From assembly GCA_030427735.1 (NCBI GenBank), contig JAUIBP010000001.1, positions 372,001 to 436,000 of the forward strand: a DNA stretch of 64,000 nucleotides. The letters are read 5' to 3'. The position numbers and the translations under genes were made by a program. The notes below the pieces were generated by a model. That model made no database searches. It saw nothing but the letters and a program-made list of their open reading frames with translations, and had not been told where the DNA came from. The stretch is from Bacteroidia bacterium. Lineage in GTDB: Bacteria > Bacteroidota > Bacteroidia > Flavobacteriales > Flavobacteriaceae. Below, one piece after another: positions 1-34,200 of this stretch (within the stretch, counting starts at the first letter, position 1; each line of letters opens with the position of its first letter).

Positions 1-822
1 GGCATAACGCTGGTAGTAAGGCCCTTCGGTATAATACCCATCTGGCGAAAACGGCTCTTCTAAATTGGCTAAAAATCCTGCCTTTTGGCCTTCAATAAAA
101 ATATCGCCTCCATCGTTATCTTTCGCTCCTTTTTCTAATTGTGCATTCGGAATACCATATAGTGCTCTGCTAATTAACGCGTCGTCCTGCATTACTAAGC
201 CAATCATTCCCACAGCAACATTACCCCAAGTACTATGATTGTGAATGCGATTAAAAAACTGTGGCGTTTCGATTGATAAAAAATCGGCCATAGGTCTAAA
301 CACATTTGTCTCTAAATACCGAACCTCTTTTTTTGTTAAAAACGGGTAGATACAATCGTAAGCCTGACTGGTATATACCAACCAGTTTGCATCGTTTAAG
401 CATTGCCAAAATAATTTACCTCGCGAATACGAACGCTCTTCTGGGTGCCTTGGCAAGTTAGGATACATTTTAGCATAGGCCATTAACATATCGCGTACAT
501 ATATAGCATAAGTGTTATCGTTTAAAATTTGAAACAACACTCCTGCTTTTTGCATGGTAAGATAATTCAGTTTATGGCGCTCGTGGGTATACCCGCCAGC
601 CATATCTTTAGGTATAGGTACCTGTATGCCCTCTGCTATTTGTGCATCTACAAACTTTTTTGCTTCGCTTAACGATGCATCAAACAACGGCACGTTTCCT
701 AATGCTTTTTTAATATCCTGAACCCCTTGCTGTGTTAAAATTAAGTTAGGATGCTCTTGAGACATAACTTGCACCGCCAAAAAGAAACTACAAAAGCATA
801 TGATGTTTTTTAAATAAACCAT
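1..822 (-). CDS. Oligoalginate lyase, PL17 family (3' part beyond window)
   Basis: The reading frame starts with ATG at 822 and runs open through the left edge, giving 274 residues of the N-terminal part. Residues 1 to about 21 form a signal peptide ending in VMSQ. An (alpha/alpha) toroid-type sequence follows. The segment FNRIHNHSTWGN has N195-H196, the pair that in PL17 exolyases binds the carboxylate and helps catalysis. SPDGYYTEGPYYQRYA near residues 259-274 is the PL17/heparinase-II-like motif region carrying catalytic Tyr residues. Family knowledge: PL17 enzymes release unsaturated monouronate from alginate oligomers, usually in the periplasm. The start lies 6 bp after the stop of the PL6 gene, so the two share a transcript and the operator/promoter near 3220-3272. 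The C-terminal beta-sandwich part lies outside the window. Confidence 0.9.
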   Translation of the reverse strand, partial: MVYLKNIICFCSFFLAVQVMSQEHPNLILTQQGVQDIKKALGNVPLFDASLSEAKKFVDAQIAEGIQVPIPKDMAGGYTHERHKLNYLTMQKAGVLFQILNDNTYAIYVRDMLMAYAKMYPNLPRHPEERSYSRGKLFWQCLNDANWLVYTSQAYDCIYPFLTKKEVRYLETNVFRPMADFLSIETPQFFNRIHNHSTWGNVAVGMIGLVMQDDALISRALYGIPNAQLEKGAKDNDGGDIFIEGQKAGFLANLEEPFSPDGYYTEGPYYQRYA

Positions 823-828
823 GAGTTG

Positions 829-3201
829 TTAATTGTGTAATACACCTAAATCTTTTCCATCTGTTGCTTTTCCCTTTAACGGAGACGCTTTTGGTAATTT
901 AAACGCATCGGTATTTACAAATTCAGGATTTACATTTAAATTATCCTTTACCGTATATTTTTGGTCGCCTGTAACCCGCATGTCGTCTGCTTGATAAAAG
1001 TTATTACGAACAACGTTAACAATAGGCTCGCCTACTACCAAATGCATATCTATGGCTTTTGTATGATCGAAAATGTTGTTTGTAATGTCTATTTCTTGAG
1101 CACCGTATAAAGAAACAGCAGCGTTATAAGCATTTCGTTTTCCAAAACCGATATTATGAAACACATTATGCTCCATTTCTAAAAATGGTCCAAAAGTACT
1201 TTCGTCTTTACCTCCACGGTGTAACCTAAGCACCGCACCTTCAACATCAGAAAAACTGTTGTTTTTTAAGATCACGTATTCGGCATTGTAAATACCAATA
1301 TTATCGGTCTCTTTATCTAAAGCCATAATATGGCCAGAAATATTTTTAAAGGATGAATTTGTAACACTAATAGTATCGGCAAATGTATTTTTATACACTT
1401 TTAATACATCGTAAGAATGATTAACATCTAAGTTTATAACCTCGCAATTATTTATAAATAACTTATAATTGTTATTCATAGAATATTTACTCGTAGCAAT
1501 TAAAGCATTCCCCGAATAATCTGGTGCTTTTTTACCGTCGAATTGAATGCCCTCTAAACGTAAACTACCTCCGTTTTTAATTTCGAACAACGATTTCTTT
1601 TCAAATAATACTTCTGGTTTTTTATCGGATTTCGATACAAACGATATGGGCTTATCTAAAGCAATCGTTTTCGTTTCTACATAAGGCTGATCTGTTGTTG
1701 TTAACTCGATGACGTCACCAGCTTCAGCTTGTTTTACAGCATCAAATAAAGTATTCATTCCAGCTTTGACTTGAATGGTTTTACCTGAATTTAAAAGCAC
1801 ATCGGTATCGGCTTTCGAATACCACGATGCACCTGTATTATCTTTAGTCGCTATATCGTCGGCAATAGTAACCTTTTGTTGTAATGTTTCTGAAACTGGA
1901 ATTAAGTACCCTCTGTCGTCTTCCTCTAAAGTAAAATCTACAGGATTGAATCCTGATGTAATACCCGTAACGATATTAGGACTTATACTATTATTTTTAA
2001 ATGTAATGCCACTAATATCGTCGTAAATAGTAAACAACGAATCGCGTGTAGCGTGGTAAAAAATATTATCCTCCATAATAGAATTGATAGGCGTGGCGCT
2101 GCGCTCGGCATCGCTACCAGCACACAGCTGAATATGGTCGCAATTCACGAAGGTGTTGTTTTTTACAACTGCATCTTCTACTTGATGATATCTGTTAATT
2201 GGTGAATTAGGCACGCCATTCATAATCACAAAAGCACCTCTAAATCTGTAACCGGTTAAACCTTCGGCATAATTATTAATAACGGTTTGTTGTCCGTTAA
2301 TTATTCTAATACCTCCTGTGCTTGGTTTATTATTACCTAAAAACACATTGCCTTCAACCAAAGTTTTGCTCCCATGGCGCATGGTTAGTGTACCTGTACA
2401 TTCGTAAAACGTGTTGTATTTATAAGTGTTAGATCCCGATTTGTTCGAAATAATTTCATGTTCGCCATTACATCTGTCAAAATAATTATAAGCAACAGTT
2501 GTTTTAGAATCTTTTAAAGAATGATGGCTGGTACCTATACGAAGTGTTTCACCGCCATTAGCCCCTAAATTTGGTCGCGGGCCAAAATAATTATGATCGA
2601 TTAAATGATTGTTTTCTAAACTAGCTTCAGTAGTTAAACGTACTGCCATTGTAACTCCCAAGTTACGTTTTCCTGCAAAGTGGTTATGGTCTACCCTATT
2701 GTTTTTTCCGTAAAGTGCAATCCAATAATCTTGTTCGTGACGTTCTGGGTTACTATAATTATCAATTACGCATTCTGTTAGCCTTACATGATTTGCTAAA
2801 GTTTGGTCATCTTTTTTAAACTCAATTACACTACTTGTTGGCGTGAATCCGTTTTTAAATACCAATCCTTTTATTATTAAATGTTCGCCAGCAATTTTTA
2901 AATAAGAATGACCTTCTAAAATAACTTTTCCTTTATCTTCTACAGTTAAAGTAATTGGGTTTTCTTTAGTGCCATGCGCTTCAAAAATTAATTCGGCATC
3001 GGTCCAAACGCCATTAGCAAGAACAATCTCATCACCTGGTTTTGCATTGACAACCTTAGTATTAAATGCTTCTACATTACTAACAAGATCTTTAGATGTA
3101 CTGGTTTTGGTATTACACGCCGTTATGAATACGGCTGTACAACATAATGCTAGTACAATCTTACTAAACCCCCTCACTTTCAAACGAATATTTACTGACA
3201 T
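829..3201 (-). CDS. Alginate lyase, PL6 family, two-domain AlyGC-like lipoprotein
   Basis: 790 residues. The signal peptide ends in a lipobox (FITAC, lipidated Cys29), so the enzyme is membrane-anchored, probably at the cell surface or in the periplasm. The N-terminal parallel beta-helix (about 40-440) has the PL6 catalytic set: Lys254 (in ISNKSG) and Arg275 (in TMRHGS), 21 residues apart as in AlyGC, and the probable Ca2+ ligands Asn215, Glu247 and Glu249 at matching spacing. A second beta-helix fills about residues 470-790, so this is the long two-domain type and not the short monodomain form. Family knowledge: PL6 enzymes beta-eliminate alginate, often MG or poly-M blocks, and several are exolytic. 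First gene of the PL6-PL17 operon, divergent from susC. Confidence 0.93.
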   Translation of the reverse strand: MSVNIRLKVRGFSKIVLALCCTAVFITACNTKTSTSKDLVSNVEAFNTKVVNAKPGDEIVLANGVWTDAELIFEAHGTKENPITLTVEDKGKVILEGHSYLKIAGEHLIIKGLVFKNGFTPTSSVIEFKKDDQTLANHVRLTECVIDNYSNPERHEQDYWIALYGKNNRVDHNHFAGKRNLGVTMAVRLTTEASLENNHLIDHNYFGPRPNLGANGGETLRIGTSHHSLKDSKTTVAYNYFDRCNGEHEIISNKSGSNTYKYNTFYECTGTLTMRHGSKTLVEGNVFLGNNKPSTGGIRIINGQQTVINNYAEGLTGYRFRGAFVIMNGVPNSPINRYHQVEDAVVKNNTFVNCDHIQLCAGSDAERSATPINSIMEDNIFYHATRDSLFTIYDDISGITFKNNSISPNIVTGITSGFNPVDFTLEEDDRGYLIPVSETLQQKVTIADDIATKDNTGASWYSKADTDVLLNSGKTIQVKAGMNTLFDAVKQAEAGDVIELTTTDQPYVETKTIALDKPISFVSKSDKKPEVLFEKKSLFEIKNGGSLRLEGIQFDGKKAPDYSGNALIATSKYSMNNNYKLFINNCEVINLDVNHSYDVLKVYKNTFADTISVTNSSFKNISGHIMALDKETDNIGIYNAEYVILKNNSFSDVEGAVLRLHRGGKDESTFGPFLEMEHNVFHNIGFGKRNAYNAAVSLYGAQEIDITNNIFDHTKAIDMHLVVGEPIVNVVRNNFYQADDMRVTGDQKYTVKDNLNVNPEFVNTDAFKLPKASPLKGKATDGKDLGVLHN

Positions 3202-3219
3202 ATATTAAATAATTATTAA

Positions 3220-3272
3220 CTGGTTTACCAAATTGGTTGACCAAATATATGTATAATTATATATGTTGCCAA
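3220..3272 (-). promoter_or_regulatory. Promoter of the PL6-PL17 operon with two tandem operators
   Basis: On the minus strand a -33 TTG (3272-3270) is followed after 20 bp by the -7 box TATATTTG (3249-3242), matching the Bacteroidota TTG-N19-TAnnTTTG pattern. Two palindromes of form TTGG-N4-CCAA occupy 3233-3244 (TTGGTCAACCAA on this strand) and 3220-3231 (TTGGTAAACCAG), centres 13 bp apart. The first shares its TTG with the -7 box. A bound repressor would cover the -7 box and start site. The ATG is at 3201, leaving a short leader. Confidence 0.72.
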
Positions 3273-3777: not shown

Positions 3778-3820
3778 TATATTTGGTAAACCAAATTGGA
3801 TAACCAAATTGGATAACCAA
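3778..3820 (+). promoter_or_regulatory. susC promoter with three tandem operators
   Basis: The -7 box TATATTTG (3778-3785) runs directly into three palindromes: TTGGTAAACCAA (3783-3794), TTGGATAACCAA (3796-3807) and TTGGATAACCAA (3809-3820). Centres are exactly 13 bp apart. No TTG lies 19 bp upstream, so the -33 element is weak or this promoter needs an activator. The first palindrome overlaps the -7 box as at the PL6 and PL7 promoters. The third copy is unique to this promoter. Confidence 0.72.
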
Positions 3821-4097
3821 AAAAAAACAAACAACAATTAATTAAAAAAAGAATAAGCCATGATTAAAAATCCAGATTAGATTTAAACACACTACCCGCA
3901 AGGTTCTGGTAACACCAAAGCACTTGCAAATGTTATGTTTCGTTTTTTAAGTATTTCATTCTATAAAAATACCAGAGTAAAACAGTAAGGATAACCAAAC
4001 CACATCCTAAAACGGAAAAAACATTTTAAAAAGCGATATCTACATCGCAACTGATTAACAACAATTAACAAGTCTAATACAATTAACAAAACTAATA
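3821..4097 (+). other. Long 5' leader of susC
   Basis: If transcription starts just after the -7 box at 3778-3785, susC has an untranslated leader of about 300 nt, unlike the leaders of roughly 30 nt at the PL6 and PL7 genes. It contains AAGGATAACCAA at 3987-3998, a 10/12 match to the second operator, and TGGT-AAC-ACCA at 3907-3917. Possible small hairpins include GCAAG/CTTGC around 3898-3928 and GCGAT/ATCGC around 4033-4048. No open frame of note. Confidence 0.4.
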
Positions 4098-7000
4098 ATG
4101 AATTTAAAAACTCAATGTATTGCACTCGCGCTGCTTTTTTTTAATGTAGCGCTATTTGCCCAAACGGGTTACAACATTACAGGTCATGTAGCCGACGCTC
4201 AAAATGTTCCTATTGCAGGAGCTAATATCCTTATTAAAGGTTCGTCCACTGGTACGTCTACCGATTTCGATGGTAATTTTGAATTGGAAGTAAAGTCTGG
4301 AGACGTACTTCAAATCTCTTATTTAGGTTATGTAACCCATACAGTAACTATAACGGACCAAAATCCTGTAAAAATCACCTTGGTAGAAGATGCTAGTCAA
4401 CTAGAAGAAGTTGTGGTGGTTGGGTATGGTACTCGTAAAAAGAGTGATATAACGGGATCTGTAGCTTCAGTAAAATCCGAAGAATTAACGGCTTACCCAA
4501 CATCAAATGCAGAGCAAGCCTTACAAGGTCGCGCTGCTGGTGTGGTAGTACAATCCAACAATGGTGGCGAACCAGGAGCACCAATAAATATTAAAATTAG
4601 AGGAAATACATCCATTAATGCAAGCAGTAACCCACTTATAGTTGTAGATGGTTTTGTTGGCGCCGCCATGCCACAGGCTAACGATATTGCTTCTATGGAA
4701 GTTTTAAAAGATGCCTCGGCTACCGCTATTTACGGTTCCAGAGGTTCTAATGGTGTTATTTTAGTAACCACAAAAACAGGAAAATCGGGTCGGTTAAATA
4801 TTGAGTTTAACAGCTCGTATGCTATACAAAATACAGCTAATGAAATTGATTTATTAAATGCCGATGAATTTGCAAACTATCAAAACGACATTAGAGCCAA
4901 TACAGGAAATACAAGCCCTTACACCCAAGGTTCGGGCAATACCAATTGGCAAGATTTAATTTACAGATCTGGAAACACTCAAAATTACCAATTGGCGTTT
5001 TCGGGAGGTTCAGAAAAAATTAAATTCTATGCTTCTACCAATTATTTTGGGCAAGACGGTATCGTTATCAATTCTGATTTCGAAAAATTAACATTCCTAT
5101 CGAATATTGATGCTCAAGTTTTCGACAATTTAAAATTAGGAATGAACCTATATGGTAGTAGAGATGAAAAAAATGGAGCCGCCACACAATCGGATGGATC
5201 GGTTTCTGCCGGTGGAGACGATGTTATTACTCTTGCCATGAGATATGCACCAGATCAGCCTGTGTACGATGAAGACGGTAGCTATAACTCTGGTAATTCT
5301 GTTGGAGATCCAGTAGATAACCCATATGCTGTGGCTACCGAAAGAATAGACGAAAATAAAACCGATGATTTTAGAGCCAACTTGTTTGCCGACTGGGATA
5401 TTATTGAAAGCCTATCGTTTAGAACTACATTTGGTTTTAGCACACAAAACAGAACCAGAGGTATTTTCTCGCCATCTACCTTAGAAGTTACAGCTGGCGG
5501 TATAGATGGTCGCGCTTCGGTACAAAACAATAAAAACACACAAGTACTAAGCGAAAACTATTTAACCTATTCCACAACAATAGGAAAAGGAGACTTCACA
5601 TTAATGGGAGGATATTCTTACCAGAAATCGGTTTCTGAATATTATTATATGGAAGCAACAGGATTCTTATCTGATACCTTCTCGTATTACGGATTTGGCT
5701 CGGCCACAAATATTTTACAGCCAGATTCTACTATTTCGGAAGTAGAAATTCAATCACAATTTGGCCGTTTAAACTACGATTGGGACGATAAATATTTATT
5801 TACTGCCACCGTACGTCGCGATGGGGCATCGAACTTTGCCGAAAATCATAAATACGCCATTTTTCCTTCTGGAGCTATTGGTTGGAAAATCTCTAACGAA
5901 AATTTCTTAAAAGACAGCAACACGATTTCTAACCTAAAATTAAGAGCCTCTTATGGGGTTACAGGTAACCCTTCTATCGGGGCATACGAGTCTTTAGCTA
6001 GAATTGAAGGTATTTACGCTTCCAGTAACGGAGAAACAGTTAGTGCCGTTACACCAGACCGCCCAGGTAATCCAGACTTAAAATGGGAATCGTCTTACCA
6101 AACCAACTTTGGTTTAGATTTTGGCCTGTTAAGCAACCGAATTAATATGTCTTTCGATTATTATAATATCAATACCGAAGATTTAATTTTAATAAACAAT
6201 GCCCTTCCAGAATATGCAGGATATTTAGATGACGAAATTTTAACTAATGTTGGTGAAATTAATAACCGTGGATTTGAATTCGCATTAAACACCATAAACA
6301 TTTCTAACGAAAACTTTACTTGGAGTACCGATTTTAATATTGCCTTTAACCGAAATGAAGTGGTGAGTCTTGTAGGCGGATTAGATTATTTTGGTAATGC
6401 GGCACCATCTTATTTCTCGCACGACAGAAGTTATGTATTAAGAGAAGGCGAAGCGGTTGGCTTATTTTGGGGTTACGATTATGCTGGTGTTTACCAAGGT
6501 GGTAATGTACCTGCAGGAACAGCAACTTTACCAGGTGGTGTTGCTGGAGATCCTCTATTTGCCGATTTAGATGACAGTGGCGATATTACCGAAGCAGACA
6601 GAACAACCATTGGCGATCCTAACCCAGATTTTACTTGGGGCTTTACCAATAATTTTACATTAGGAAACTTCGATATGAATATTTTCTTTCAAGGTTCTCA
6701 AGGAAACGAAATATTTAACATGACCAATGTTCAATTAACCAACGGAGATGCCAACACTACCAGAGATAACTACTACTCGGCATGGACTCCAACAAATACC
6801 GACACCAACACACCTAGAGTTGGTAACAACAGTAACAGAGAAATTTCGTCTCGTTTTGTTGAAGACGGAAGTTATGTAAGGCTAAAAAACATAGCAATAG
6901 GCTACACATTTGCATCCGATGTATTAGATAATATTGGAATAGAAAGATTAAGACTTGCCATAAGTGCGCAAAACCTATTAACATGGACCGATTACTCGGG

Positions 7001-7133
7001 CTTAGATCCAGAAGTAAACTATTTTGGTTCCGAAGGCAACAACAACTTCTCGTCTAACACTGCACAAGGTTTCGATTTCGGAAACTATCCAACAGTTAGA
7101 ACAGTAACCTTTAGCCTTAATTTGAAATTTTAA
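4098..7133 (+). CDS. SusC/RagA-family TonB-dependent outer-membrane transporter
   Basis: 1011 residues. Signal peptide 1-21 (ends LFAQ), a carboxypeptidase-regulatory-like beta-sandwich at about 26-98, the EVVVVGYG segment at 104-111 that precedes the plug in SusC proteins, a plug domain to about 230 (with VVDGFVG and ATAIYGSRGSNGVILVTTK), then a 22-strand-type barrel ending in an aromatic C-terminus (NLKF). Family knowledge: SusC proteins import oligosaccharides across the outer membrane with TonB energy, with SusD as a lid. Between alginate lyases, the substrate is inferred to be alginate oligomers. Followed after 20 bp by susD. Expression is predicted from the three-operator promoter at 3778-3820. 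Confidence 0.95.
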   Translation: MNLKTQCIALALLFFNVALFAQTGYNITGHVADAQNVPIAGANILIKGSSTGTSTDFDGNFELEVKSGDVLQISYLGYVTHTVTITDQNPVKITLVEDASQLEEVVVVGYGTRKKSDITGSVASVKSEELTAYPTSNAEQALQGRAAGVVVQSNNGGEPGAPINIKIRGNTSINASSNPLIVVDGFVGAAMPQANDIASMEVLKDASATAIYGSRGSNGVILVTTKTGKSGRLNIEFNSSYAIQNTANEIDLLNADEFANYQNDIRANTGNTSPYTQGSGNTNWQDLIYRSGNTQNYQLAFSGGSEKIKFYASTNYFGQDGIVINSDFEKLTFLSNIDAQVFDNLKLGMNLYGSRDEKNGAATQSDGSVSAGGDDVITLAMRYAPDQPVYDEDGSYNSGNSVGDPVDNPYAVATERIDENKTDDFRANLFADWDIIESLSFRTTFGFSTQNRTRGIFSPSTLEVTAGGIDGRASVQNNKNTQVLSENYLTYSTTIGKGDFTLMGGYSYQKSVSEYYYMEATGFLSDTFSYYGFGSATNILQPDSTISEVEIQSQFGRLNYDWDDKYLFTATVRRDGASNFAENHKYAIFPSGAIGWKISNENFLKDSNTISNLKLRASYGVTGNPSIGAYESLARIEGIYASSNGETVSAVTPDRPGNPDLKWESSYQTNFGLDFGLLSNRINMSFDYYNINTEDLILINNALPEYAGYLDDEILTNVGEINNRGFEFALNTINISNENFTWSTDFNIAFNRNEVVSLVGGLDYFGNAAPSYFSHDRSYVLREGEAVGLFWGYDYAGVYQGGNVPAGTATLPGGVAGDPLFADLDDSGDITEADRTTIGDPNPDFTWGFTNNFTLGNFDMNIFFQGSQGNEIFNMTNVQLTNGDANTTRDNYYSAWTPTNTDTNTPRVGNNSNREISSRFVEDGSYVRLKNIAIGYTFASDVLDNIGIERLRLAISAQNLLTWTDYSGLDPEVNYFGSEGNNNFSSNTAQGFDFGNYPTVRTVTFSLNLKF

Positions 7134-7153: not shown

Positions 7154-8692
7154 ATGAAAACATATAAATATTTATTTCTGTTATTGATAAGCCTATCAAT
7201 AATTGGATGTTCAGATTTAGAAGAAGAGCCAGTTGGTATACTTGCTCCCGAAGGATTTTTCTCCTCTATGGCCGATGTGCAAGCTGCTGTAGATGGTTCG
7301 CTTACGCATGCCATAAACGAAAAAATATGGGGTCGAAAGTTATCAATTGCATTAATGCTACGTTCAGACATGGTAAGCTTAGCTTCAAACGAAACCAGAA
7401 GGGTTGAAATGGAAGAACTTACTACCTTAGCTAGCAACGGTATGTTAAGCGAATTTTGGCCTAGAATATACCAAGGTATTGCCGCTGCTAACCTAGCCAT
7501 TTCTGGCGCCGAAAGCGTTAGTGCCGAAGAATCCATTAAAAATCCAGTAGTAGCACAAGCTTATTTTACAAGAGCGTTCTACTATTTTCACTTAGTACGC
7601 TTATTTGGCGACATTCCATACATAGACGGTCCGTTTACCGAAGCAGATTTAACAATAGGTAAAACACCTGTAGCCGAAGTTTACGAAAAAATAATTGCCG
7701 ATCTTGAATTTGCAGAAACTTGGTTACCAGAAACGACTGCCTCGGCTGCAATTCCATCAAAAGGTGCAGCGACCTCGTATTTGGCTTTAGTTTACCTAAC
7801 AAGAGCTGGCACAAGCAATACTGCAGATTTTCAAAAAGCCTATGACTATGCTACACAAGTTATAAATAGCGGTATGTACGCTTTAGATAGTAACTACCAG
7901 AATTTATTTAATGCCAATGTTATTGACGCATCTCCAGAACCTATTTTTGCATTAGATTACAACAACGTTGAAGCCGAAGACAATGCTTACGACCAAACTG
8001 CACCTATGACAGGTATTAGAGGAGACGACCGTAACGACGGTGGCGGATGGTCTGTAGCCGTACCATCTTTAGAAGTGTATACCACTTGGGATGCTGGCGA
8101 TTATAGACGTGCCGTAAGTTTAGACGATGAAGCCAATATTAATGGCACCTATGTTAATTACACACAATTTGATATTAGTGGTCATCAATTCGCTAAAAAC
8201 GTACCATACATCGCAAAATACATGCGCTACCCTGGACCTTACGCACGAATTAACGCCAGAGCAACAAGTCATAATTATTCTATGATACGCTATGCCGAAG
8301 TATTGTTAATTGCTGCAGAAGCTGCTGTAGAATTAGGCAACAACGCAGCTGCTCTAGATTATATTAATCAAGTGAGAGCTAGAGCAAGAATGGGTGGTGC
8401 CTACAAAACAGGAGCAGATATTGAAAAAACGTTTCCTGCAAGTCCAGTTCCAGCAAACCTAACGGGTACAGTTACCATAAACGATGTACTGGAAGAACGC
8501 CGATTAGAATTAGCTTTCGAATGCAAACGATGGTACGATATCGTACGACGACAAATTGGAGACCAAGCCTATGGCCCTAACGGTTTAGAAGGGAATAAAG
8601 AATTCTTTACCGCCGACGATTACTTATTACCATTACCAGAAGATGAGTTAGAGCGAAACCCTAACTTACTACCACAAAACCCTGGTTACTAA
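7154..8692 (+). CDS. SusD/RagB-family surface glycan-binding lipoprotein
   Basis: 512 residues, typical for SusD. The signal peptide has a lipobox SIIGC with Cys19, predicting an outer-membrane surface lipoprotein. SusD landmarks: the N-terminal helical repeat region with YFTRAFYYFHLVRLFGDIPY, the segment RYAEVLLIAAEAAVELGN near residues 377-394, and the C-terminal ERRLELAFECKRWYDIVRR. Family knowledge: SusD proteins form the lid of the SusC transporter and bind the glycan. Here the ligand is inferred to be alginate oligomers from the adjacent PL6, PL7 and PL17 genes. Starts 20 bp after susC, in the same transcript. Confidence 0.95.
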   Translation: MKTYKYLFLLLISLSIIGCSDLEEEPVGILAPEGFFSSMADVQAAVDGSLTHAINEKIWGRKLSIALMLRSDMVSLASNETRRVEMEELTTLASNGMLSEFWPRIYQGIAAANLAISGAESVSAEESIKNPVVAQAYFTRAFYYFHLVRLFGDIPYIDGPFTEADLTIGKTPVAEVYEKIIADLEFAETWLPETTASAAIPSKGAATSYLALVYLTRAGTSNTADFQKAYDYATQVINSGMYALDSNYQNLFNANVIDASPEPIFALDYNNVEAEDNAYDQTAPMTGIRGDDRNDGGGWSVAVPSLEVYTTWDAGDYRRAVSLDDEANINGTYVNYTQFDISGHQFAKNVPYIAKYMRYPGPYARINARATSHNYSMIRYAEVLLIAAEAAVELGNNAAALDYINQVRARARMGGAYKTGADIEKTFPASPVPANLTGTVTINDVLEERRLELAFECKRWYDIVRRQIGDQAYGPNGLEGNKEFFTADDYLLPLPEDELERNPNLLPQNPGY

Positions 8693-8740
8693 TTAACCAG
8701 TACCATAAACACGTAGTTAATATTTGTTTGAATTAGTCTG

Positions 8741-8863: not shown

Positions 8864-9574
8864 ATGAAATTCGAAATCCTTACCAAAAACGAAAATCAAG
8901 AAATCCTAAACAGCATCATCACACAAATCCGGGATCTCATCATCTATAAAAATTTAGAGCCAGGCGATAAACTTCCTTCGGAACGCACATTATCAGAGAA
9001 GTTTGGTGTAAGCAGAAACAACATCCGCGAAGCGATTCAAAAATTAGAATTTTATGCTTTATTAAAATCCAAACCCCAAAGCGGTACTTTTGTGGCCGAC
9101 ATTGGTCAAATTGCATTAAATGGCATTATTGAAGATATATTAAGATTGGAAGAACCCGATTTTAGATCGCTAGTCGAAACCAGAATATTTTTAGAATTAA
9201 AAACTGTAAAACTAGCCGCAGAACGGAGAAAAGCCGAACATGTACTTCAAATAAAAGAAGCTCTAGACGCTTATACCGATAAGGTACTTAAAGAAGAAGA
9301 CGCGGTACATGAAGATTTACTATTTCATTTGGCCATAGCAAGAGCTAGCGGTAACAGCACCATTAACACTTTAATGCTCATGATTACTCCCGAAATAATT
9401 ACTAATTTCGAAAACCATCATGTCTGCGACAAAAACATGGCATTTATTGGCATTCAAGAGCATACAGATATTTATGAGGCCATAAAATCTCAACAGCCGG
9501 AACTTGCAGAGCAAACCATGAAAACGCATTTTAAAATGTTATATCAATATTGTAACACCTCCTCCGAAAAATAA
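8864..9574 (+). CDS. GntR-family (FadR subfamily) transcriptional regulator of the alginate locus
   Basis: 236 residues. The winged helix-turn-helix is at about 12-80, with the GntR signature LEPGDKLPSERTLSEKFGVSRNNIREAIQKL and the wing SGTFV. The C-terminal FCD/FadR-C helical domain (about 95-230) includes DLLFHLAIARASGN, where Asp and His fit the metal/ligand site of FCD domains. Family knowledge: GntR/FadR repressors sit in alginate loci of marine Flavobacteriaceae; AusR of Zobellia galactanivorans is one and responds to the alginate product KDG. The TTGG-N4-CCAA palindromes found here resemble FadR-type TGGT...ACCA operators, so this protein is their best candidate binder. No such operator precedes its own gene. 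The 171-bp gap and hairpin after susD leave open whether it has its own promoter. Confidence 0.88.
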   Translation: MKFEILTKNENQEILNSIITQIRDLIIYKNLEPGDKLPSERTLSEKFGVSRNNIREAIQKLEFYALLKSKPQSGTFVADIGQIALNGIIEDILRLEEPDFRSLVETRIFLELKTVKLAAERRKAEHVLQIKEALDAYTDKVLKEEDAVHEDLLFHLAIARASGNSTINTLMLMITPEIITNFENHHVCDKNMAFIGIQEHTDIYEAIKSQQPELAEQTMKTHFKMLYQYCNTSSEK

Positions 9575-9773: not shown

Positions 9774-10709
9774 TCACTTTACAACTATCTTACTCGTTAT
9801 CTGTCGTTTAGAAAGTGTATATCCTTTTAAAACATAAATACCTTTAGCCATATTTGAAACATCTAAAACATTGTTAGAGACACTTGTACTGAGTACTTTT
9901 TTTCCTAGAACATCATATAACTCTACAGTTTTAAGATCATCTGATCCATGACTTTTAAAATGCAATAAATTAGTGGTTGGGTTTGGATAAATTTGGAAAT
10001 TTACGTTCGAAAATTCTTCTGTAGACAGAGTACCTTCAACCAGTGAAAAATTATCATAAAACACTTCAGTTTCTTCATTGATAGAACTTAAAGATCTAAC
10101 ATACACCACAACAAAGGTATTGGTTGCTGTAAAAGTGACTGAATTTAATGTAAATTCATCGTAATCATCCGTAATCATCATAAATCCGTCTACACTCTCA
10201 TCAGATTCCCCGTTAGCATTAATGCCGTCTTCTCCCGTAATTTCGGTATTTAAAAGATACACTTCTGAAGGAGTATCCATAGCCTCTGAGCGTGATTCTA
10301 CAGAAAACGTATATTCATTGCCAATGGTAAGGCCTTCAACCTTTTGATATAGGCGACGGGAACTTCCTGTGATGGCGGGGCTACCGTCATCATATAATTT
10401 AACTCCTCTGGTACCGTTGTTTCCACTACCGGTAGCGCCCAGTTGTTCGTCTATACTCCCTGCCTCACCTAGATAGTAAATTTCTAACCAATCTTCTAAA
10501 ACATCGTTATCCCAAATGGCTTGATATGGACTTGCTAAAGCATTCCCCGTTTCATCCAAAATTTCATCATTTGGCGTCATGTCGTAAGCATCAGCATTAT
10601 CTGATGTACTTCCCATACTGCCTTCGCTTGTTCCGTGGTCATCGCATGTTGGATTCAACATTAGGTTTGTTTGACTCCATCCGAAATTAAAAGACAAACA
10701 CAAAATCAA
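9774..10709 (-). CDS. T9SS-exported, probably carbohydrate-binding protein (signal peptide split by frameshift)
   Basis: The intact frame gives 311 residues from a TTG codon at 10709. Residues about 15-230 form a beta-rich single domain beginning NLMLNPTCDD and containing YQKVEGLTIGNEYTF and a later VFYDNFSLVEG, the usual layout of a jelly-roll carbohydrate-binding module. I see no catalytic motif. The last ~75 residues are a T9SS type-A sorting domain (FQIYPNPTTN, LYDVLGKKV, GIYVLKGYT, KIVVK). The frame starts in the middle of a signal peptide: the missing start MKTKLLFARQRCKTIYFF is encoded from ATG 10762 in another frame. It follows the PL7 gene by about 10 bp, so it probably presents or targets the enzyme to alginate. 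The binding role is inference. Confidence 0.72.
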   Translation of the reverse strand: MILCLSFNFGWSQTNLMLNPTCDDHGTSEGSMGSTSDNADAYDMTPNDEILDETGNALASPYQAIWDNDVLEDWLEIYYLGEAGSIDEQLGATGSGNNGTRGVKLYDDGSPAITGSSRRLYQKVEGLTIGNEYTFSVESRSEAMDTPSEVYLLNTEITGEDGINANGESDESVDGFMMITDDYDEFTLNSVTFTATNTFVVVYVRSLSSINEETEVFYDNFSLVEGTLSTEEFSNVNFQIYPNPTTNLLHFKSHGSDDLKTVELYDVLGKKVLSTSVSNNVLDVSNMAKGIYVLKGYTLSKRQITSKIVVK

Positions 10710-10772: not shown

Positions 10773-11711
10773 TTAATGGTTTAAACTCAAATTGTAATAC
10801 TTTACATAGGAAAAGGCATTGGGGTCTGTAGTTCCTAAATAATTACCAGCTTTGAAATAATTTTCAAAGGGCCATTTTTCAAGACTTATGTCTTCGTACA
10901 CATATGGCGAATCATCATTAAGTTGTACTTCTATTCGAGCATCTGAGGCTGAGATCCTGAAATCAAAAACATCATGACCTACATACCCTAGGTTCACTTT
11001 AATATCGGCCCAAGTCCTGTCATAAACACCATATAAATCAAAGCCTTCAGTAGCTTCATCAACTAAAGATTTTTTATGGCACCAGATATAACCATCCTTC
11101 CAATATATTTTAATTAGCGGTGGCCCATTGTTGCCTTTAAAACCATATGTATCCATATCTTCTTCGGAAATAATACCATGGATTTGCATGACTATAACCC
11201 AATGAAATTCGTCATTAGAAGATATGTTTTCTGAAACACTTTCTACTTTTAGCTTACCTGTCATTTCGCCACCTTCTAACAAAGTCCAATTATCTCTGGC
11301 ATTGGCAGGATTGATTAATTCACGTAACTCCGTTCTCGAATAAGAACTGTTGGCTGTAGAGGTTTCTGGATAGGTATAAAAAACAATGGAAGCATCGCTG
11401 GTATCATCATACATAAAAGGTTGTATAGACCGGAGCGATCTATACCCCTTGTTGATTAGTTGTGATGGCTGATACTCGTCTGGACTACCATTATCATTGG
11501 CATCTATGGGCAATGTTAATTTCCAGTTTGAAAAATCAATATTAGCATAGGTTACTTCCTCAACTGGTTCTATAATAACCTCCTCAGATTCCTGGTTCAC
11601 GGAACTAGGACTACTATCATCCGTTTGGCAAGACCCAAAAAAAGCAAAAGCAACAATATAAATGAGGCTTTTAATACCACTTTCAATCACTAAAAAAGTT
11701 TGACTTATCAT
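10773..11711 (-). CDS. Alginate lyase, PL7 family, lipoprotein
   Basis: 312 residues. The N-terminus has a hydrophobic stretch and lipobox AFFGSC with Cys28, followed by an acidic linker (about 30-52). The PL7 jelly roll spans about 57-312 with the three family motifs: SRTELR (125-130, catalytic Arg126), QIH (176-178, Gln176 and His178) and YFKAGNY (285-291, catalytic Tyr291). The usual Gln two residues after that Tyr is Gly here. Family knowledge: PL7 enzymes cut alginate endolytically, and QIH (rather than QVH) versions tend to act on G-containing blocks. It probably works at the cell surface and feeds SusCD. First gene of a two-gene operon with the T9SS protein, behind its own operator-bearing promoter. 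Confidence 0.93.
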   Translation of the reverse strand: MISQTFLVIESGIKSLIYIVAFAFFGSCQTDDSSPSSVNQESEEVIIEPVEEVTYANIDFSNWKLTLPIDANDNGSPDEYQPSQLINKGYRSLRSIQPFMYDDTSDASIVFYTYPETSTANSSYSRTELRELINPANARDNWTLLEGGEMTGKLKVESVSENISSNDEFHWVIVMQIHGIISEEDMDTYGFKGNNGPPLIKIYWKDGYIWCHKKSLVDEATEGFDLYGVYDRTWADIKVNLGYVGHDVFDFRISASDARIEVQLNDDSPYVYEDISLEKWPFENYFKAGNYLGTTDPNAFSYVKYYNLSLNH

Positions 11712-11721
11712 ATTTTATTAA

Positions 11722-11773
11722 TTGGTTCTCCAATCTGGTTTACCAAATATATATGTTTTTAAATAAGAAACAA
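11722..11773 (-). promoter_or_regulatory. PL7 promoter with two tandem operators
   Basis: On the minus strand TTG (11773-11771), 19 bp, then TATATTTG (11751-11744): an exact fit to the Bacteroidota promoter consensus. Palindromes TTGGTAAACCAG (11746-11735) and TTGGAGAACCAA (11733-11722) follow with 13-bp centre spacing, the first overlapping the -7 box. The architecture is the same as at the PL6 and susC promoters. Confidence 0.75.
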
Positions 11774-13861: not shown

Positions 13862-14077
13862 CTAAACAAAATTAGTTTCCGCACTATTATATGGGACAAG
13901 CCCTTTAAAATAGTCTATAATATAGGCCTCTTCGTAAAAGTTCATATCTTTAAAGACCTCTATTTTATCTATTATACGTCTCGTGTGCTCTGCATCGGAA
14001 ACAAAAAATAACAGCTCCATATAAAGATTAGTTACTAATCCATTATAAAAATCCTGTAAGGTATTATTTGTACTCAT
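13862..14077 (-). CDS. Small hypothetical protein overlapping the integrase
   Basis: 71 residues, mostly helical by composition (DFYNGLVTNLYMELLFFVSD, RRIIDKIEVFKDMNFYEEAY). It starts at ATG 14077 and overlaps the 3' end of the recombinase gene by 14 bp, so translation is probably coupled. I do not recognise it. Small proteins in this position sometimes act as excisionases, but no helix-turn-helix is evident. Confidence 0.55.
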   Translation of the reverse strand: MSTNNTLQDFYNGLVTNLYMELLFFVSDAEHTRRIIDKIEVFKDMNFYEEAYIIDYFKGLVPYNSAETNFV

Positions 14078-15425
14078 GGGTAGGTTTTAGCATTGCAGAA
14101 TAATCTTCTGGTAACTCGGCATCAATATCCCTTAAATATTTTTCTAAAGCGGACATAGAGGAATGTCCTGTAATTAGCATCAGTCTACTTTTTGCTTCAA
14201 AAGGTGACGATTCTTTAACTATGGCTCGATAGAGTTTTGTAATATAGGTATGTCTAAAACTATACAGACCATAATCTGTTCCTAGGTTAAAATGATCCTT
14301 TACAATGCGCTTAAAACGTTTTGAAAAGTAGTCGCGTTTATTATTTAAAGCCGTATCCCACTCCCCTCCTATAGCATCGGGTGTAAACAGAAAATCTTCG
14401 TCTTTAAGACCTGTTAAATCTGGCAAATCATTCCATAATAATTCTGGGATTATTTTAGTCTTTAAAGGGCTGTTTTTAGCCTTAAAACGAATGGTTCGTG
14501 TATTTACATCAATATCTTTTACCTGAAGTCTACAAACCTCAATTGGCCTTAAAAAATTATAGGAAATGAACTTGATATACAATAAAAGAACAGGATCCGT
14601 TTTTTCTAAATGCTCAAAAATAGCCTCCTGTGTTTCCTGTGAATAGGTTTTATTGCGCTCTGGTATGGTTTTTAATACGGGTATCTTTTTAATGAAATTA
14701 TCTGTTATTATTTCATTATCCTCCAACAACTGAACAATACTACTCAAATCCGTTCTATAGTTGTTTCTGTTTCTCGGACTGGTTTTCACCAAGACATCAT
14801 TTAAAAATGCTGAAAATAGTTTTTTAGTGAGTTGATCGATAGTTTTTACTTCAGGATGAACCTCAGCTAACCAATTGAGAAAAAACTCAACTCTCCCCTT
14901 ATACCCTCGTAATGTTGTTTTACTAACTAATTTTTCTTTAAGGTTTAGCGAAAAATCAAAAGCAGAACGTAACGTTTGCTTAGGTTCGGATGGAATAGCT
15001 TCAACCTCTTCACTTTTTGTTTCTTTAACAATAACAGCTGCTTTTTCTTCCGTCTTTTTGGCTTCCGTTTGTACTTCTGAGTGCTCGTTTTCCGAATTTA
15101 ATTTGTTGTAGAGTTCGGTATTGTCTTCAAAAGGATTGTAGCCTTGCTTCAATAATTTGATTAAAACTTTTCGGTAAACGGTTAAAATTTCTAAGCGCTG
15201 CTCTTTAGTTTTATAAGTATTGGCTTCTCCATAAAACGGTGTCACTCGTTTTAACATTCCTGTTTCTGGATGGCGATAGGAAAAATAAACGTACCAACGC
15301 TTACTTAAATCTCCTTTTGCAGTGTAAATTTTGGGGATGGAAAAATTCTTTTTTTTGGGCAAATCGTATGCAGTTTCGTATTCACTTTCGTATGCAAATG
15401 TAATAAATTGCTGAATTGTAAGCAT
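14064..15425 (-). CDS. Tyrosine-type site-specific recombinase (integrase)
   Basis: 453 residues. The N-terminal arm-binding-type domain (about 24-100) has the KxYTAKGDLSKRWYVYFSYRHP pattern of Bacteroidota integrases. A Lys/Glu-rich linker spans about 110-148, a SAM-like core-binding domain about 150-245, and the catalytic domain about 260-445. Catalytic residues are Arg293 (FLRPIEVC), Lys near 315-317, Arg391 (YSFRHT), His421 (ITGHSS) and nucleophile Tyr430 (EKYLRD). The His of the usual HxxR box is Tyr388, a variant I believe is common in this phylum. ATG 15425 directly abuts the T-tract of a hairpin, and the gene lies 53 bp from the 3' end of tRNA-Met. That position is typical of an element integrated at a tRNA gene. 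Confidence 0.9.
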   Translation of the reverse strand: MLTIQQFITFAYESEYETAYDLPKKKNFSIPKIYTAKGDLSKRWYVYFSYRHPETGMLKRVTPFYGEANTYKTKEQRLEILTVYRKVLIKLLKQGYNPFEDNTELYNKLNSENEHSEVQTEAKKTEEKAAVIVKETKSEEVEAIPSEPKQTLRSAFDFSLNLKEKLVSKTTLRGYKGRVEFFLNWLAEVHPEVKTIDQLTKKLFSAFLNDVLVKTSPRNRNNYRTDLSSIVQLLEDNEIITDNFIKKIPVLKTIPERNKTYSQETQEAIFEHLEKTDPVLLLYIKFISYNFLRPIEVCRLQVKDIDVNTRTIRFKAKNSPLKTKIIPELLWNDLPDLTGLKDEDFLFTPDAIGGEWDTALNNKRDYFSKRFKRIVKDHFNLGTDYGLYSFRHTYITKLYRAIVKESSPFEAKSRLMLITGHSSMSALEKYLRDIDAELPEDYSAMLKPTHEYK

Positions 15426-28289: not shown

Positions 28290-31200
28290 ATGTATAACGT
28301 TACTATTTTAAACATCTCGTATTCTTTTTTAAACACTGTTTGGCACCACGTAAACACTTTACTAAAGCCTGCTAAATCTAAATTTTTCCTTTTTGGAATG
28401 GCGCTTTGTATGTTTGTACTAAACGTTCAAGGGCAAGAAACCTTTACAGACAACACTGATAATGGTTCTGAAACTTGGCCCGTACCAGCCGGAGTATCTT
28501 CTGTTACAGTACAATTGTGGGGTGCTGGCGGTGCTGGAGGTGGCTGCCAAAACAATAATGATGCTGGATCAGGCGGCGGCGGCGGCGGATATACTGCTAT
28601 AACCCTTAACGTCTTACCCGGGCAGATAATCAACTACCAAATAGGTAGCGGTGGTGTTGGAGACACTAACGATGGTGAAGATGGAGAAAACTCAACACTA
28701 AGCCATAGTAATTCTTCAACCTCTTTAACTGCATTCGGTGGAGATGGCGGGCAACAAGATGACAGTAATAATATCCCTGGAGGAACTGGAGGACCAGCGA
28801 CTGGGGGCACCACTAATATAAGTGGACAAAATGGATCTAATGGAGGAGGAACTACTGGAGGTAACGGAGGTAATGCTGGAAACACAAGTAATACTGGTGG
28901 AGCCGGAAATAACAATGGCAGTGGTGATGACGGTATAATACCTGGCGGTGGCGGCGGTGGCGGGGAACAGTTTTTCGGCGTCGATCAATCTGGAGGAAAT
29001 GGAGGAAATGGGCAACTCATCATTACCTACACCATTAACCTAACCCCTACCATCACCAATTTATCCGCTACCAATATCTGCGAAGGCGAATCGCTTACCA
29101 TAACGGGTACAAATTTTACAGGAGCTACCGCAGTAACTATAGGTGGTACCAACGTAAGCAATTATACCGTAAACTCCAACACACAAATAACAGCCACTGT
29201 CGGTTCTGGAAGCACAGGAGCAGTGCAAGTTACTACGGTAGGAGGCACTGCATCTAGCGCACAATCTGTAACCGTAAATACGCTATCGGGAGCACCTACA
29301 ACCATAACAGGAACTACAAGTATTTGTACCGTTGGTGGTACTACCACCCTGCAAGCCCAAGGCGGTAGCGCTGGCACTAATGCGCAAGTGGTATGGTACC
29401 AAAATGCCGTTGGAGGCACTCCAGTAGACACAGGTAATAGCATTACGGTATCTCCAACTACCACTACAACCTATTATGCCCGTTACGAAGGCGATTGTAA
29501 CACTACTACAGCTGTGTCTGCAGAGGTTATAGTAGCCCCAATAGCAGCAGCAGGCGCATTAACAACCGGAGCTACAACAGTGTGTCAAGGCCAAACCGGT
29601 GTGGTTTACACTATAGACCCCATTACCAATGCTACGAGTTACGAATGGACAGTACCTTCGGGAGCAACCATAACTTCTACACCGCCTTACACCAATAGTA
29701 TTTCTGTAAACTATTCTGCCAGCGCCTCAACAGGTAACCTAACTGTAAGAGGTGTTAACAGTACTTGTCCTGCTGGCCAAGCACTAACGCAAGTAATTAC
29801 TGTAAACACATTATCTACTGCACCAACCGCAATAGCAGTACAAGGTGGCGGTGCAAGTGCCATCTGTAGTGGCGAAAACATCAATTTAACGGTTTCTGGA
29901 GGTACTTTAGGTACTAATGCAGAACCGCAATGGTCTACAGACAATTGTAGTAATACTTCCTTTTCTAATGCACAATCTATTACTGTAAACCCAACGACAA
30001 CCACTACGTATTACGTAAAATATGTCGGCGATTGTAACGAAACAGCATGTATTTCAATAACTGTAACGGTAGGACAACCTTTAGGTACTCCCACAAATTT
30101 AACAGGAACCACCGAAGTCTGTCAAGGCCAAACCAATGTTACCTATACGGTAGATCCTATAGCCAATGCCACCGACTATACTTGGCAAGTACCAACAGGA
30201 GCAACTATTACTTCTGGAGCCAACACCAATAGCATTACTGTAAATTATAGTACTACCGCAGTTTCAGGAAACGTTACCGTTACCGGTAGTAACGATGAAT
30301 GTGGAGACAGTTCTGTAGCATCATTGGCCGTAACTGTTAATGAATTAACCGTAGCACCAACTTTTGAATCGCCTACCGATGTGGTTTGCGATGGCGATAG
30401 CGTAACTTATACCGTTACCGAAATTACCGATGCAGCGTCTTATAATTGGACCGTGCCAACGGGAGCAACTATTACTTCTGGAAACAACACAAACAGCATT
30501 ACTGTCGATTTTTCTGGAGCAGTAAGTGGCGATATTTCCGTTAGTGGCCAAAATGCCTGCGGATCAGGTAATACAACAACGCTACCCATTACCGTAAATA
30601 CCATTCCAGAAAATGCAGGCGCCATAAGTGGCCCAAATACCGTATGCCCTGGCGATACTGCCGTGGAATATTCTATTGCAGCCATAAGCAATGCAAGTTC
30701 GTATGTTTGGTCTATTTCTAATGCATCTGCAACCATAATAGAAAGCGGCTCTGATACTAATGCCATAGCCATAAACATTTCTTCAACACCATTAAGCGAT
30801 TTCATCATTTCGGTAGTTGGCGAAAATGATTGCGGTGTAAGCGCAGTAATTTCTGAATTTACAGTTAATTTAAACCAAGAATCTGTTGCTCCTACAACCA
30901 TTACCCCAACTGTAAGTAACATTATATGTGAAGACACCTCTACAACACTTACCGTATCGGGAGGCAGTTTAGGTACAGATGCTTCTATAGAATGGTTTAC
31001 AGATTCCTGCGGAGGCACTCCCGCAGGAACAGGCGCAAGCATTACGGTATCTCCTACCTCAAACACGACCTATTTTGCACGCTATACAGGCACCTGTAAC
31101 ACAACCGACTGTGCGCAAATAGACATTATAATAGATCCAAAACCATTGGCTGCCGGAACAATTACAGGAACCAATGTTGTTTGTCAAGGAGAAACTAACG

Positions 31201-34200
31201 TACAATATAGCGTACCGAGTATAGATTATGCTACGAATTACATTTGGACATTACCTCCTGGAGCCACTATAGTTTCTGGAGATGGTACCAACACCATACT
31301 TGTAAATTACGACATTTCCGCTAGCTCTGGCGCGATAACGGTTCAAGGTGAAAACGATTGTGGTACAGGAACCCTATCTGCAAACTATCCCGTAACCGTA
31401 AACATTACCCCTTATATACCCAATAACTATAACGAAACAGTATGTAGTGGAGAATCTTTTAATTTTACACCACCTAACGGAGGTGGTAATACAGTACCTC
31501 CAGGAACAACGTACTCGTGGACCATACCAACCAATATGAATGGCGTTACTGGCGCGACATCAGGCACAAACGAAAATAGCTTCAATCAAACTTTAATCAA
31601 TCAAACAGGGAGTCCGCAAACCGTAGTGTATCAGGTTACAGCACAAACAGGAGGATGTTCGGCATCTGTTTTCGAAATTTTACTCACAATAAATCCGCAA
31701 CCTATCGTTTCGGGAACACCTACAACACAAACAACATGTTCTGGAGCGCCTATAAATACTATTAGCTTTACCGAAGAGTCTGGAATTTCTGGTGCCATCG
31801 ACTTCATCTGGTCCAGAGATAATACAGCAAATGTTACAGGTACACCTACTAGTGGTAATAGTAGTACTATAAATGTTACCTTAAACAATACCACAAACAC
31901 ACAACAAACCGTTATATTTTCTGTAACAGCAATTTCCGAAAACGGCTGTGAATCGCCTCCTTTTAGTGTAGAAGTGTTAGTAAACCCAACGCCTACAGTT
32001 ATTGCAACACCTGCTACGCAAACCATCTGTTCGGAAGAAAATATTACCGAAATTATATTATCAAACCCAAATAATGTTACAGGACCTGTAAATTACAGTT
32101 GGACAAGAGATAATAACACTAACATTACAGGAATTGCAAATGGTAGCGGAAATTCCATAACGGGACAACTTACAAATACTACTAACACCCCACAAACCAC
32201 AACTTTTACCATAACTGCAGAAGCGAGCGATTGTTCTTCGGCCACGACTACAGCTACGGTAACTGTAAACCCAAAACCAATTTTATCGGTTAATATAGAT
32301 GAACAAGAGGTTTGTGGTAATTCCACAATAGCAAACATAGTGGCAGGTAGCAACCTAAGTGGTACATCTTTTTCATGGACACGAAACGATGTTACTGGTC
32401 TATCAGGAATTCCAACCAGCGGAAATGGAGCCACTATTTCGGGTACATTTATAAACAATACCAACACTACACTTACCACTACTTTTACCATTACAGGAAC
32501 GCGAAATGGTTGTTCGGAAAGTATCACTTCTCAAGTGAATATTAAACCAACTCCACTTATCGTAGCCACACCTAATACGCAGGCCATTTGTGATGATGAT
32601 TCCTTCTCTATAAACTTAAGCTCAAGCAATAATGTCTCTGGAACCACTTACAGCTGGACACGAGATAAAACATCGGAAGTAACGGGAATAGCTGCTTCAG
32701 GAGCTGGCAGCCCCATAACCGCAAGCTTAAGCAACAACACAACCACAACACAAACAGTCACTTTTACTATAACAGCGACTGCAGATGGCTGTAGTTCTAC
32801 TTCTACAGCAACGGTTGATGTGTATGCGCCTTTAATTGCGCCTGTAATTTCTGAAAGTCAGGCTGTTTGCTTTTTAGCTGCACCTTCTCTATTAGAAATA
32901 ACAAACTCAAATCTAGGTGGATCTGGAAATTATAGTTATCAATGGCAAAGAAAAATTACTGAAACTGCTGCTTGGGAGAATATTGCAGGAGCTACCGACA
33001 GTTCTTACCAACCAGGTTTAGTTACGCAAAATTATTTCTACCAACTTATAATAACTGATGAATGTGGAACAGTAACAAGTAACACTGTCTTTGTACAAGT
33101 AATTGCGAATATTGGATTCACTTTTACGCTTACAGGAATACCTAATACTGAAATTTGTCCTGAAACTATTTTTACTCCAGGAATTAGTTCTGTACATGTT
33201 GGAAGTTCGGCCGTTCGCTATTCTTGGACATCTGATTCTGACTTCATCTCTCCTTCATCTGGTGGACCTATGGGAAATACAGGCCCAGGAGTACCATTTG
33301 ATTGGCTACCACTTTTTAGGACTTCTTCTGCAAACATAGGACCTTTAACGGTTCAAAATAATACGAATGAAACGGTAACTACCCAAATCAGGATAAAACC
33401 AAGTGTATACAACTATGCCGATAATAACCCAACTGAATCTGATTTCATTTGTGATATTTCAGAGCAAGTTATAGATATCACCATCAGACCTACTCCAATA
33501 GCCTATGCAACAGCTGCGGCAAACAGTATTTGTAGTGACAGCAGTGCCGATATAGAAATTACTGGTAATATAACAGATGCCCCAATGCAATTTAGCTGGA
33601 CACGTACCACCCCTAGCGGTATTACGGGAGCTACTAATGGAAACTCTGGAAATATAGCGGCGGGTTCTGATTATGTTATTGATAATGAATTAACAAACAC
33701 CACAGGCTCTCCTATAAGTGTTACCTACACCATTACTCCAACTTCTAACGGCTGTACAGGAACTCCAATAACGTATACTATTACGGTTGGTCCTACAGTA
33801 ACGTCTGGAACTATTGCCGCTAACCAAACCATTTGTAATGGTGGCGATCCTGTTGCCTTTACACAAACTGTTGCTGCAACAGGCTCTAATTTAAGCTACC
33901 AATGGGAAAGCAGTACAGACAACGTTACATTTACTGCCATTACGGGAGCAACAGGAGTTACTTACGATGCGCCTTCTGGATTAACAGCGTCTACCTGGTA
34001 CCGCCGAGTTGTAAGCACTACAGTAAATGGTTTTACATGTTCTGAAGTCCCAACAGCATCTATTTTCGTTGCCGTAAACACTTTTGACCCTGGATCTGTT
34101 TCTGGAAATCAAACCATTTGTTCTGGAGATACACCAACTAGCTTAGGCAGTGTAAACGCATCTAGCAGTAATTCGGGAACAACATTTAATTACAATTGGC

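Follow-up and report, generated by a model that had tools for sequence, protein, structure and literature searches.

Palindrome arrays of the alginate locus

Within the window (the whole stretch of 64,000 nucleotides that was analysed), an alginate locus comprises genes for PL17-, PL6- and PL7-type lyases, a SusC-type transporter, a SusD-type lipoprotein, a secreted protein and the GntR/FCD regulator AusR1, the likely binder of short palindromes that stand in tandem at three of its promoters (Table 1). Judging from gene order and strand, the secreted protein is perhaps encoded on the same transcript as PL7. Directly upstream of ausR1 the window holds no 13-bp array; a palindrome of a geometry unlike that of AusR, CTGGTTA-N5-TAACCAG (window 8683-8701), spans the end of susD ~160 bp before ausR1. 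Tyrosine recombinase genes (window 14064-15425; L011:6017-7243) lie within a few kb of two alginate lyase genes, perhaps as a trace of gene mobility.

Table 1. Genes, predicted operator units, predicted boxes and leader element (window positions unless a named locus is given)
Feature	Position	Strand	Remark
PL17-type lyase gene, 5' part	1..822	-	after PL6; leaves window (L010:15582-17822), then cupin gene outside
PL6-type alginate lyase (Pfam Chondroitinas_B)	829..3201	-	downstream of first array
Operator unit 2, PL6 promoter (predicted AusR site)	3220..3231	-	CTGG on + strand
Operator unit, promoter-proximal, PL6 promoter (predicted AusR site)	3233..3244	-	TTGGTCAACCAA on - strand
Predicted -7 box TATATTTG, PL6 promoter	3242..3249	-	shares bases with operator; predicted start ~3237 if TAnnTTTG is -12 to -5
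Predicted -7 box TATATTTG, susC promoter	3778..3785	+	shares bases with unit 1; predicted start ~3790
Operator unit 1, susC promoter (predicted AusR site)	3783..3794	+	
Operator unit 2, susC promoter (predicted AusR site)	3796..3807	+	
Operator unit 3, susC promoter (predicted AusR site)	3809..3820	+	
SusC-type TonB-dependent transporter	4098..7133	+	downstream of triple array
SusD-type lipoprotein	7154..8692	+	
AusR1, GntR/FCD regulator	8864..9574	+	likely binder of arrays
Secreted protein with type IX sorting tail	9774..10709	-	
PL7 alginate lyase	10773..11711	-	downstream of third array
Operator unit 2, PL7 promoter (predicted AusR site)	11722..11733	-	
Operator unit, promoter-proximal, PL7 promoter (predicted AusR site)	11735..11746	-	TTGGTAAACCAG on - strand
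Predicted -7 box TATATTTG, PL7 promoter	11744..11751	-	shares bases with operator; predicted start ~11739
Two-hairpin leader element	L010:14843-14904	-	also in susC leaders of L043-L120

The initial annotation had described TTGG-N4-CCAA palindromes at these promoters, and all seven units were recovered: two at 3220-3244, three at 3783-3820 and two at 11722-11746, with the centres of all neighbouring units exactly 13 bp apart, as it had also claimed. The letters it had given held for five units, while those at 3220-3231 and 11735-11746 read CTGG-N4-CCAA; the general form TGG-N4-CCA is common to all seven, their shape being close to TTGGTNNACCAA. Each 13-bp unit consists of the 12-bp palindrome and one further base, and units 2 and 3 of the susC promoter are identical over 13 bp. 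In promoter orientation TATATTTG enters the first unit at all three promoters, as described earlier.

Chance recurrence had been called very unlikely, and shuffling bore this out: the window holds seven exact TTGGN4CCAA (1.16 expected) and six pairs at 13 bp with up to three mismatches (0.32 expected), and none of 100 shuffles reached either count. Two of the seven exact palindromes (36032 and 58424) and two of the six pairs (36019 and 45031) lie outside the three promoters. The pair at 36020 was rejected as a coding coincidence: one of its units has 5 of 6 core bases, and it lies inside an open frame of 3219 aa. This very long frame occupies window 28290-37949.

Across the 3.64-Mb genome, the paired pattern TGGN4CCAANYTGGN4CCA gave 12 strand-hits at six places with two or three copies each, and none for the reversed-pattern control. 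Single TGGN4CCA sites numbered 796 (542 for the reversed control); since single palindromes are this common, the signal is carried by pairing rather than by the single site. A motif widespread at unrelated promoters had been named as an outcome that would speak against a shared alginate operator; instead, five of the six arrays precede alginate-lyase or SusC genes, and the sixth precedes a secreted protein of unknown function. The earlier picture of one operator shared by the locus is supported but incomplete, as three further arrays and a second regulator, AusR2, lie elsewhere. Of these arrays, the one at C4:369941 is triple and precedes a second SusC gene, with genes for SusD, PKD, PL7, AusR2, MFS, SDR, kinase and aldolase following on the same strand. 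A pair at C13:50411 stands upstream of the gene for an 864-aa secreted enzyme of PL6 type, and another at C4:69033, which is ~300 kb away from the alginate locus, upstream of one for a 316-aa secreted protein that matches Pfam in its sorting tail only. AusR2 (C4:362333-363025; L010:7324-8025, - strand) is 68% identical to AusR1 and is encoded ~17.8 kb away, in a neighbouring run of alginate genes. The gene of the 316-aa type-IX-secreted protein, with the 13-bp AusR-type pair before it (L009:9034-10048), stands beside a LamB-type porin gene. The secreted proteins of window 9774-10709 and L009:9098-10048 align with any weight only over the sorting tail.

Arrays and AusR across Flavobacteriaceae

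Arrays, defined as two or more units so that single units fell outside the calling, were called in 78 named loci around ausR relatives (none with a record named Zobellia) and at the six places of the genome itself. After the pair at window 36020 was dropped, 102 of 103 arrays were kept: six in the genome itself and 96 in the named loci, where 73 of 78 had at least one and L054, L061, L071, L095 and L114 had none. A complete TAnnTTTG stood at an array edge in 101 of the 102 (in one of these at both edges), and the remaining array, in L070, had 5 of 6 bases. Measured against 20 reference proteins, 95 arrays had a reference-like gene within 600 bp downstream of the box on the same strand, and seven had no such gene within that distance; in 12 named loci an array stood before ausR itself. 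Among these related genomes, with single units outside the calling, 62 of 72 susC arrays had three or four units and 29 of 30 non-susC arrays had two. Single sites fused to a box outside arrays made up 3 of 100 in the loci, and an ausR lies downstream of one of the three (L079). Promoters belonging neither to susC nor to ausR (18) mostly had TTG 19 nt upstream of the box. A TAnnTTTG-type box is placed at -12 to -5 in flavobacteria by the passages considered (PMC9723704); therefore the start site is predicted to fall inside unit 1, with the remaining units downstream of it.

The pitch of the arrays was almost invariant. In 1.49 Mb of named loci, TGGN4CCA pairs up to 60 bp apart were spaced by 13 (133 pairs), 26 (61), 39 (5), 24 (1) and 56 bp (1), so that 199 of 201 close pairs lay at 13, 26 or 39 bp. 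Three control patterns gave no comparable 13-bp series in the same loci, and the opposite-sense unit CCA-N4-TGG was ruled out on the same ground.

Among 298 Flavobacteriaceae genomes, 73 had an AusR match (E 1e-40 or better) and 80 had the 13-bp pair pattern (TTGGN4CCANNTTGGN4CCA). A scan of relatives, proposed with the initial annotation, showed that the array follows the GntR protein: the pattern occurred in 72 of 73 AusR-bearing genomes vs 8 of 225 AusR-less ones. The eight AusR-less genomes had one match each (median of four in AusR-bearing genomes), and in G094, the sole miss among AusR-bearing genomes, three units at 13 bp appear when C is permitted as first letter (CTGG; L155). Ten other pitches (14-23 bp, pooled) had no association with AusR (26 of 73 vs 63 of 225, p 0.24); kinship among the genomes and loci makes p-values here overstate independence. 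A PL17 match (E 1e-100) was found in 60 of the 298 genomes, and arrays were present in all 13 AusR-bearing genomes without one. Because all 60 PL17-positive genomes are AusR-bearing, the association cannot wholly tell AusR apart from the other genes of the locus.

Between the array and the start codon of susC lies a conserved two-hairpin element, AAGGAYAGG...CCTATCCTT followed by ATTACTTC...GAAGTAAT, which a strict expression found in 57 of 72 susC leaders. A covariance model at E 0.01 matched 97 of the 298 Flavobacteriaceae genomes, the weaker matches partly in AusR-less ones; at E < 1e-5 it matched 54, all AusR-bearing, leaving 19 AusR-bearing genomes without. In 21 of 23 genomes with both positions listed the element was 46-149 bp from the array (exceptions G207 and G245). 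The window's own susC leader (3821-4097) gave no covariance-model match at E 0.1, and no Rfam family matched the element. Support for base pairing from covariation is mixed: the covariation score exceeded all 500 shuffles and the number of changed pairs did not; one pair had both partners changed in 8 of 37 sequences, but its neighbour lacked pairing in 23 of 37. Its A and T runs give the first hairpin the look of a terminator. In L155-L157, where the array stands before ausR, weak matches (E 0.0057, 5.4e-5 and 0.017) lie between ausR and susC; this order, with ausR separating array from element, points to an element that goes with susC rather than with the operator.

AusR1 and related regulators

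AusR1 has GntR and FCD domains (Pfam); its whole open frame is 238 aa, and the winged helix begins at about residue 17. In a structure model (mean pLDDT 79), helices follow residue 82, which gives the predicted protein the layout of the FadR subfamily of GntR regulators, with an N-terminal GntR winged helix and a C-terminal all-helical FCD domain. Fold matches of the model were GntR/FCD proteins including NanR, DhdR and FadR (best E 1.1e-8); whole-chain superposition was poor (TM 0.40-0.52, rmsd 8-13 A), and the effector domain alone fitted better (DhdR domain, TM by target 0.72-0.83). Identity to other Flavobacteriaceae proteins reaches 78%. By its domains, its place in the locus and this identity, the regulator is probably the orthologue of AusR of Zobellia galactanivorans.

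The abstract of Dudek et al. 2020 (NAR) is said to give an account of AusR in which it acts on single, double and triple operators. The same account stands in the passages considered of PMC7874173, where AusR of Z. galactanivorans is an alginate repressor that binds single, double or triple operators; those of PMC8286568 and PMC8073546 agree on the repressor role, and the latter notes a duplication of AusR in some Zobellia. The idea of AusR operators is therefore not new. Compared by description and not by sequence, both systems have a GntR repressor gene in the alginate locus, multiple operators at promoters and a duplicated AusR; one to three copies are described for Zobellia, compared with two or three here and up to four in relatives. 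The passages considered that cite the AusR work mention neither a 13-bp pitch kept across Flavobacteriaceae, nor three or four units at most susC promoters against two elsewhere, nor a 15-16 bp spacing of the same palindrome in another family. A literature search for the AusR operator sequence did not find it, and the palindrome letters TTGGTATACCAA gave unrelated matter only.

Another parallel is NanR of E. coli, described in the passages considered as binding cooperatively, as three dimers, to the triple repeat (GGTATA)3 by way of a 32-residue N-terminal extension (PMC8012715). The likeness lies in a GntR-type repressor with several dimers (reported for NanR, predicted here) on a closely spaced repeat in which spacing matters. 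However, the NanR sites are direct repeats whereas the arrays here are palindromes, and the winged helix beginning at residue 17 of a 238-aa frame leaves no room for a NanR-like extension in AusR1. In the parts considered of a survey of the FadR subfamily, the consensus is TKGT/ACMA boxes 2-3 nt apart, with a 2-nt centre for UxuR, PrpR and others (PMC4494728). The palindrome here is of a like TKGT-N2-ACMA form, with A in place of the inner T in 14% of the first units and 44% of the third. The survey's table, as far as considered, contains no FadR-subfamily protein of Bacteroidetes, and its sites carry weaker extra half-sites where the arrays here are runs of full palindromes (PMC4494728).

Outside Flavobacteriaceae the same palindrome recurs at a different pitch. 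Among 296 genomes of the phylum, 11 had an AusR relative (E 1e-30), eight of them Flavobacteriaceae; in one other family of the same class, 28 of 100 genomes had one. In 25 loci of that family (L126, L127 and L129-L151, each reaching at most ~1.5 kb beyond ausR), TGGN4CCA pairs up to 60 bp apart were spaced by 15 (14 pairs), 16 (4), 25, 27, 28, 30 (3), 31, 42 (2) and 57 bp, with none at 13 bp; the 15- and 16-bp pairs came from 15 of the 25. TTGGN4CCAA stood within 300 bp before ausR in 23 of the 25, and in two larger neighbourhoods (L152 and L153), both of them alginate loci, susC comes immediately after ausR. In a tree of 46 AusR proteins, the 20 Flavobacteriaceae members, three of them deep members that carry 13-bp arrays (L155-L157), split from the rest with support 100/99; the rest include a single row from a third family, two rows have long branches, and the tree did not settle how AusR1 and AusR2 are related. 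The palindrome is thus common to both sides of the split, and the pitch (13 bp vs 15-16 bp) is not. An N-terminal segment of AusR as the cause of the 13-bp pitch was set aside: in the deep 13-bp members of L155 and L157 the match to the query does not begin before residue 18.

Interpretation of the arrays

Very probably, the arrays are tandem operators of AusR, a FadR-subfamily GntR repressor of alginate catabolism. The initial annotation had proposed a shared operator of the FadR-type GntR protein of the locus, lying over the -7 box, and this proposal gains from what sequence comparison adds: i) the domains of AusR1; ii) co-occurrence of array and AusR across genomes; iii) a palindrome of FadR-subfamily type; iv) the position of five of the six genomic arrays at alginate genes. 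Less in keeping with it are the want of a 13-bp array immediately before ausR1 and the sixth genomic array, whose protein is not known to be linked to alginate; with two paralogues in the genome, either AusR1 or AusR2 may be the one that acts. That the palindromes arose by chance or are simple repeats of AT-rich promoters has next to no probability: the region is indeed AT-rich and single TGGN4CCA sites are common, but the shuffles never reached the window counts, the reversed pair control was empty and the arrays are kept across Flavobacteriaceae. Another regulator, co-inherited with alginate loci, might bind the arrays in place of AusR, since the association is by genome and locus only and every PL17-positive genome also has AusR. 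We consider this improbable, as the palindrome has the GT-N2-AC form of the FadR subfamily, arrays stand at the ausR promoter itself in 12 named loci, the palindrome precedes ausR in nearly all loci of the other family, and Zobellia AusR is reported, in the passages considered, on operators of one to three copies (PMC7874173).

A further alternative accepts AusR as the binder and parts from the preferred reading on cooperativity only: the units would act independently, and the 13-bp pitch would be a relic of tandem duplication and of shared flanking bases, with no contacts between dimers. The identity of susC units 2 and 3 over 13 bp is what duplication would give, and a unit of 12-bp palindrome plus one base is in keeping with it. 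On the other hand, nearly all close pairs in the named loci lie at multiples of 13 bp despite varying centre letters, where a pitch free of selection should have been scattered by small indels; moreover the pitch of 15-16 bp in the other family means that the palindrome itself does not dictate 13 bp. Independent units are a possible account, though a somewhat doubtful one. The invariant pitch suggests that neighbouring AusR dimers may touch and bind cooperatively.

With AusR as the predicted binder, one dimer per palindrome would lie over both -7 box and start site and bar RNA polymerase directly, and further dimers, centred at ~+12 and ~+25, would strengthen the block. The stronger block would be at susC, where three or four units prevail; lyase and ausR promoters, mostly with two, would be held less firmly. 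Alginate breakdown products would release AusR and derepress the genes, as reported for Zobellia; this derepression may be switch-like, as the initial annotation had proposed. By arithmetic, with 10.5 bp to the turn, a 13-bp step amounts to 1.24 turns, or ~86 degrees onward, and a step of 15-16 bp is about half a turn; because the two steps turn differently, dimer contacts, if any, must differ between the clades. AusR dimers may, we tentatively propose with confidence close to but short of even, form a defined side-by-side row on the same palindrome, the step being set by the protein (13 bp in Flavobacteriaceae, 15-16 bp in the other family) and the number of steps tuning the hold (three or four at most susC promoters, mostly two for lyases and ausR), with pitch and dimer-dimer contacts having co-evolved.

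An exactly scannable motif extends the regulatory model of Zobellia to 72 of the 298 sampled Flavobacteriaceae genomes. AusR regulons thereby become predictable by motif scan, which in the present genome adds one secreted protein of unknown function. Moreover, since the pitch differs by clade, what dimer spacing does in a GntR repressor can be tested directly, and if pitch and contacts did evolve together, the two clades would be a natural test pair for their co-evolution.
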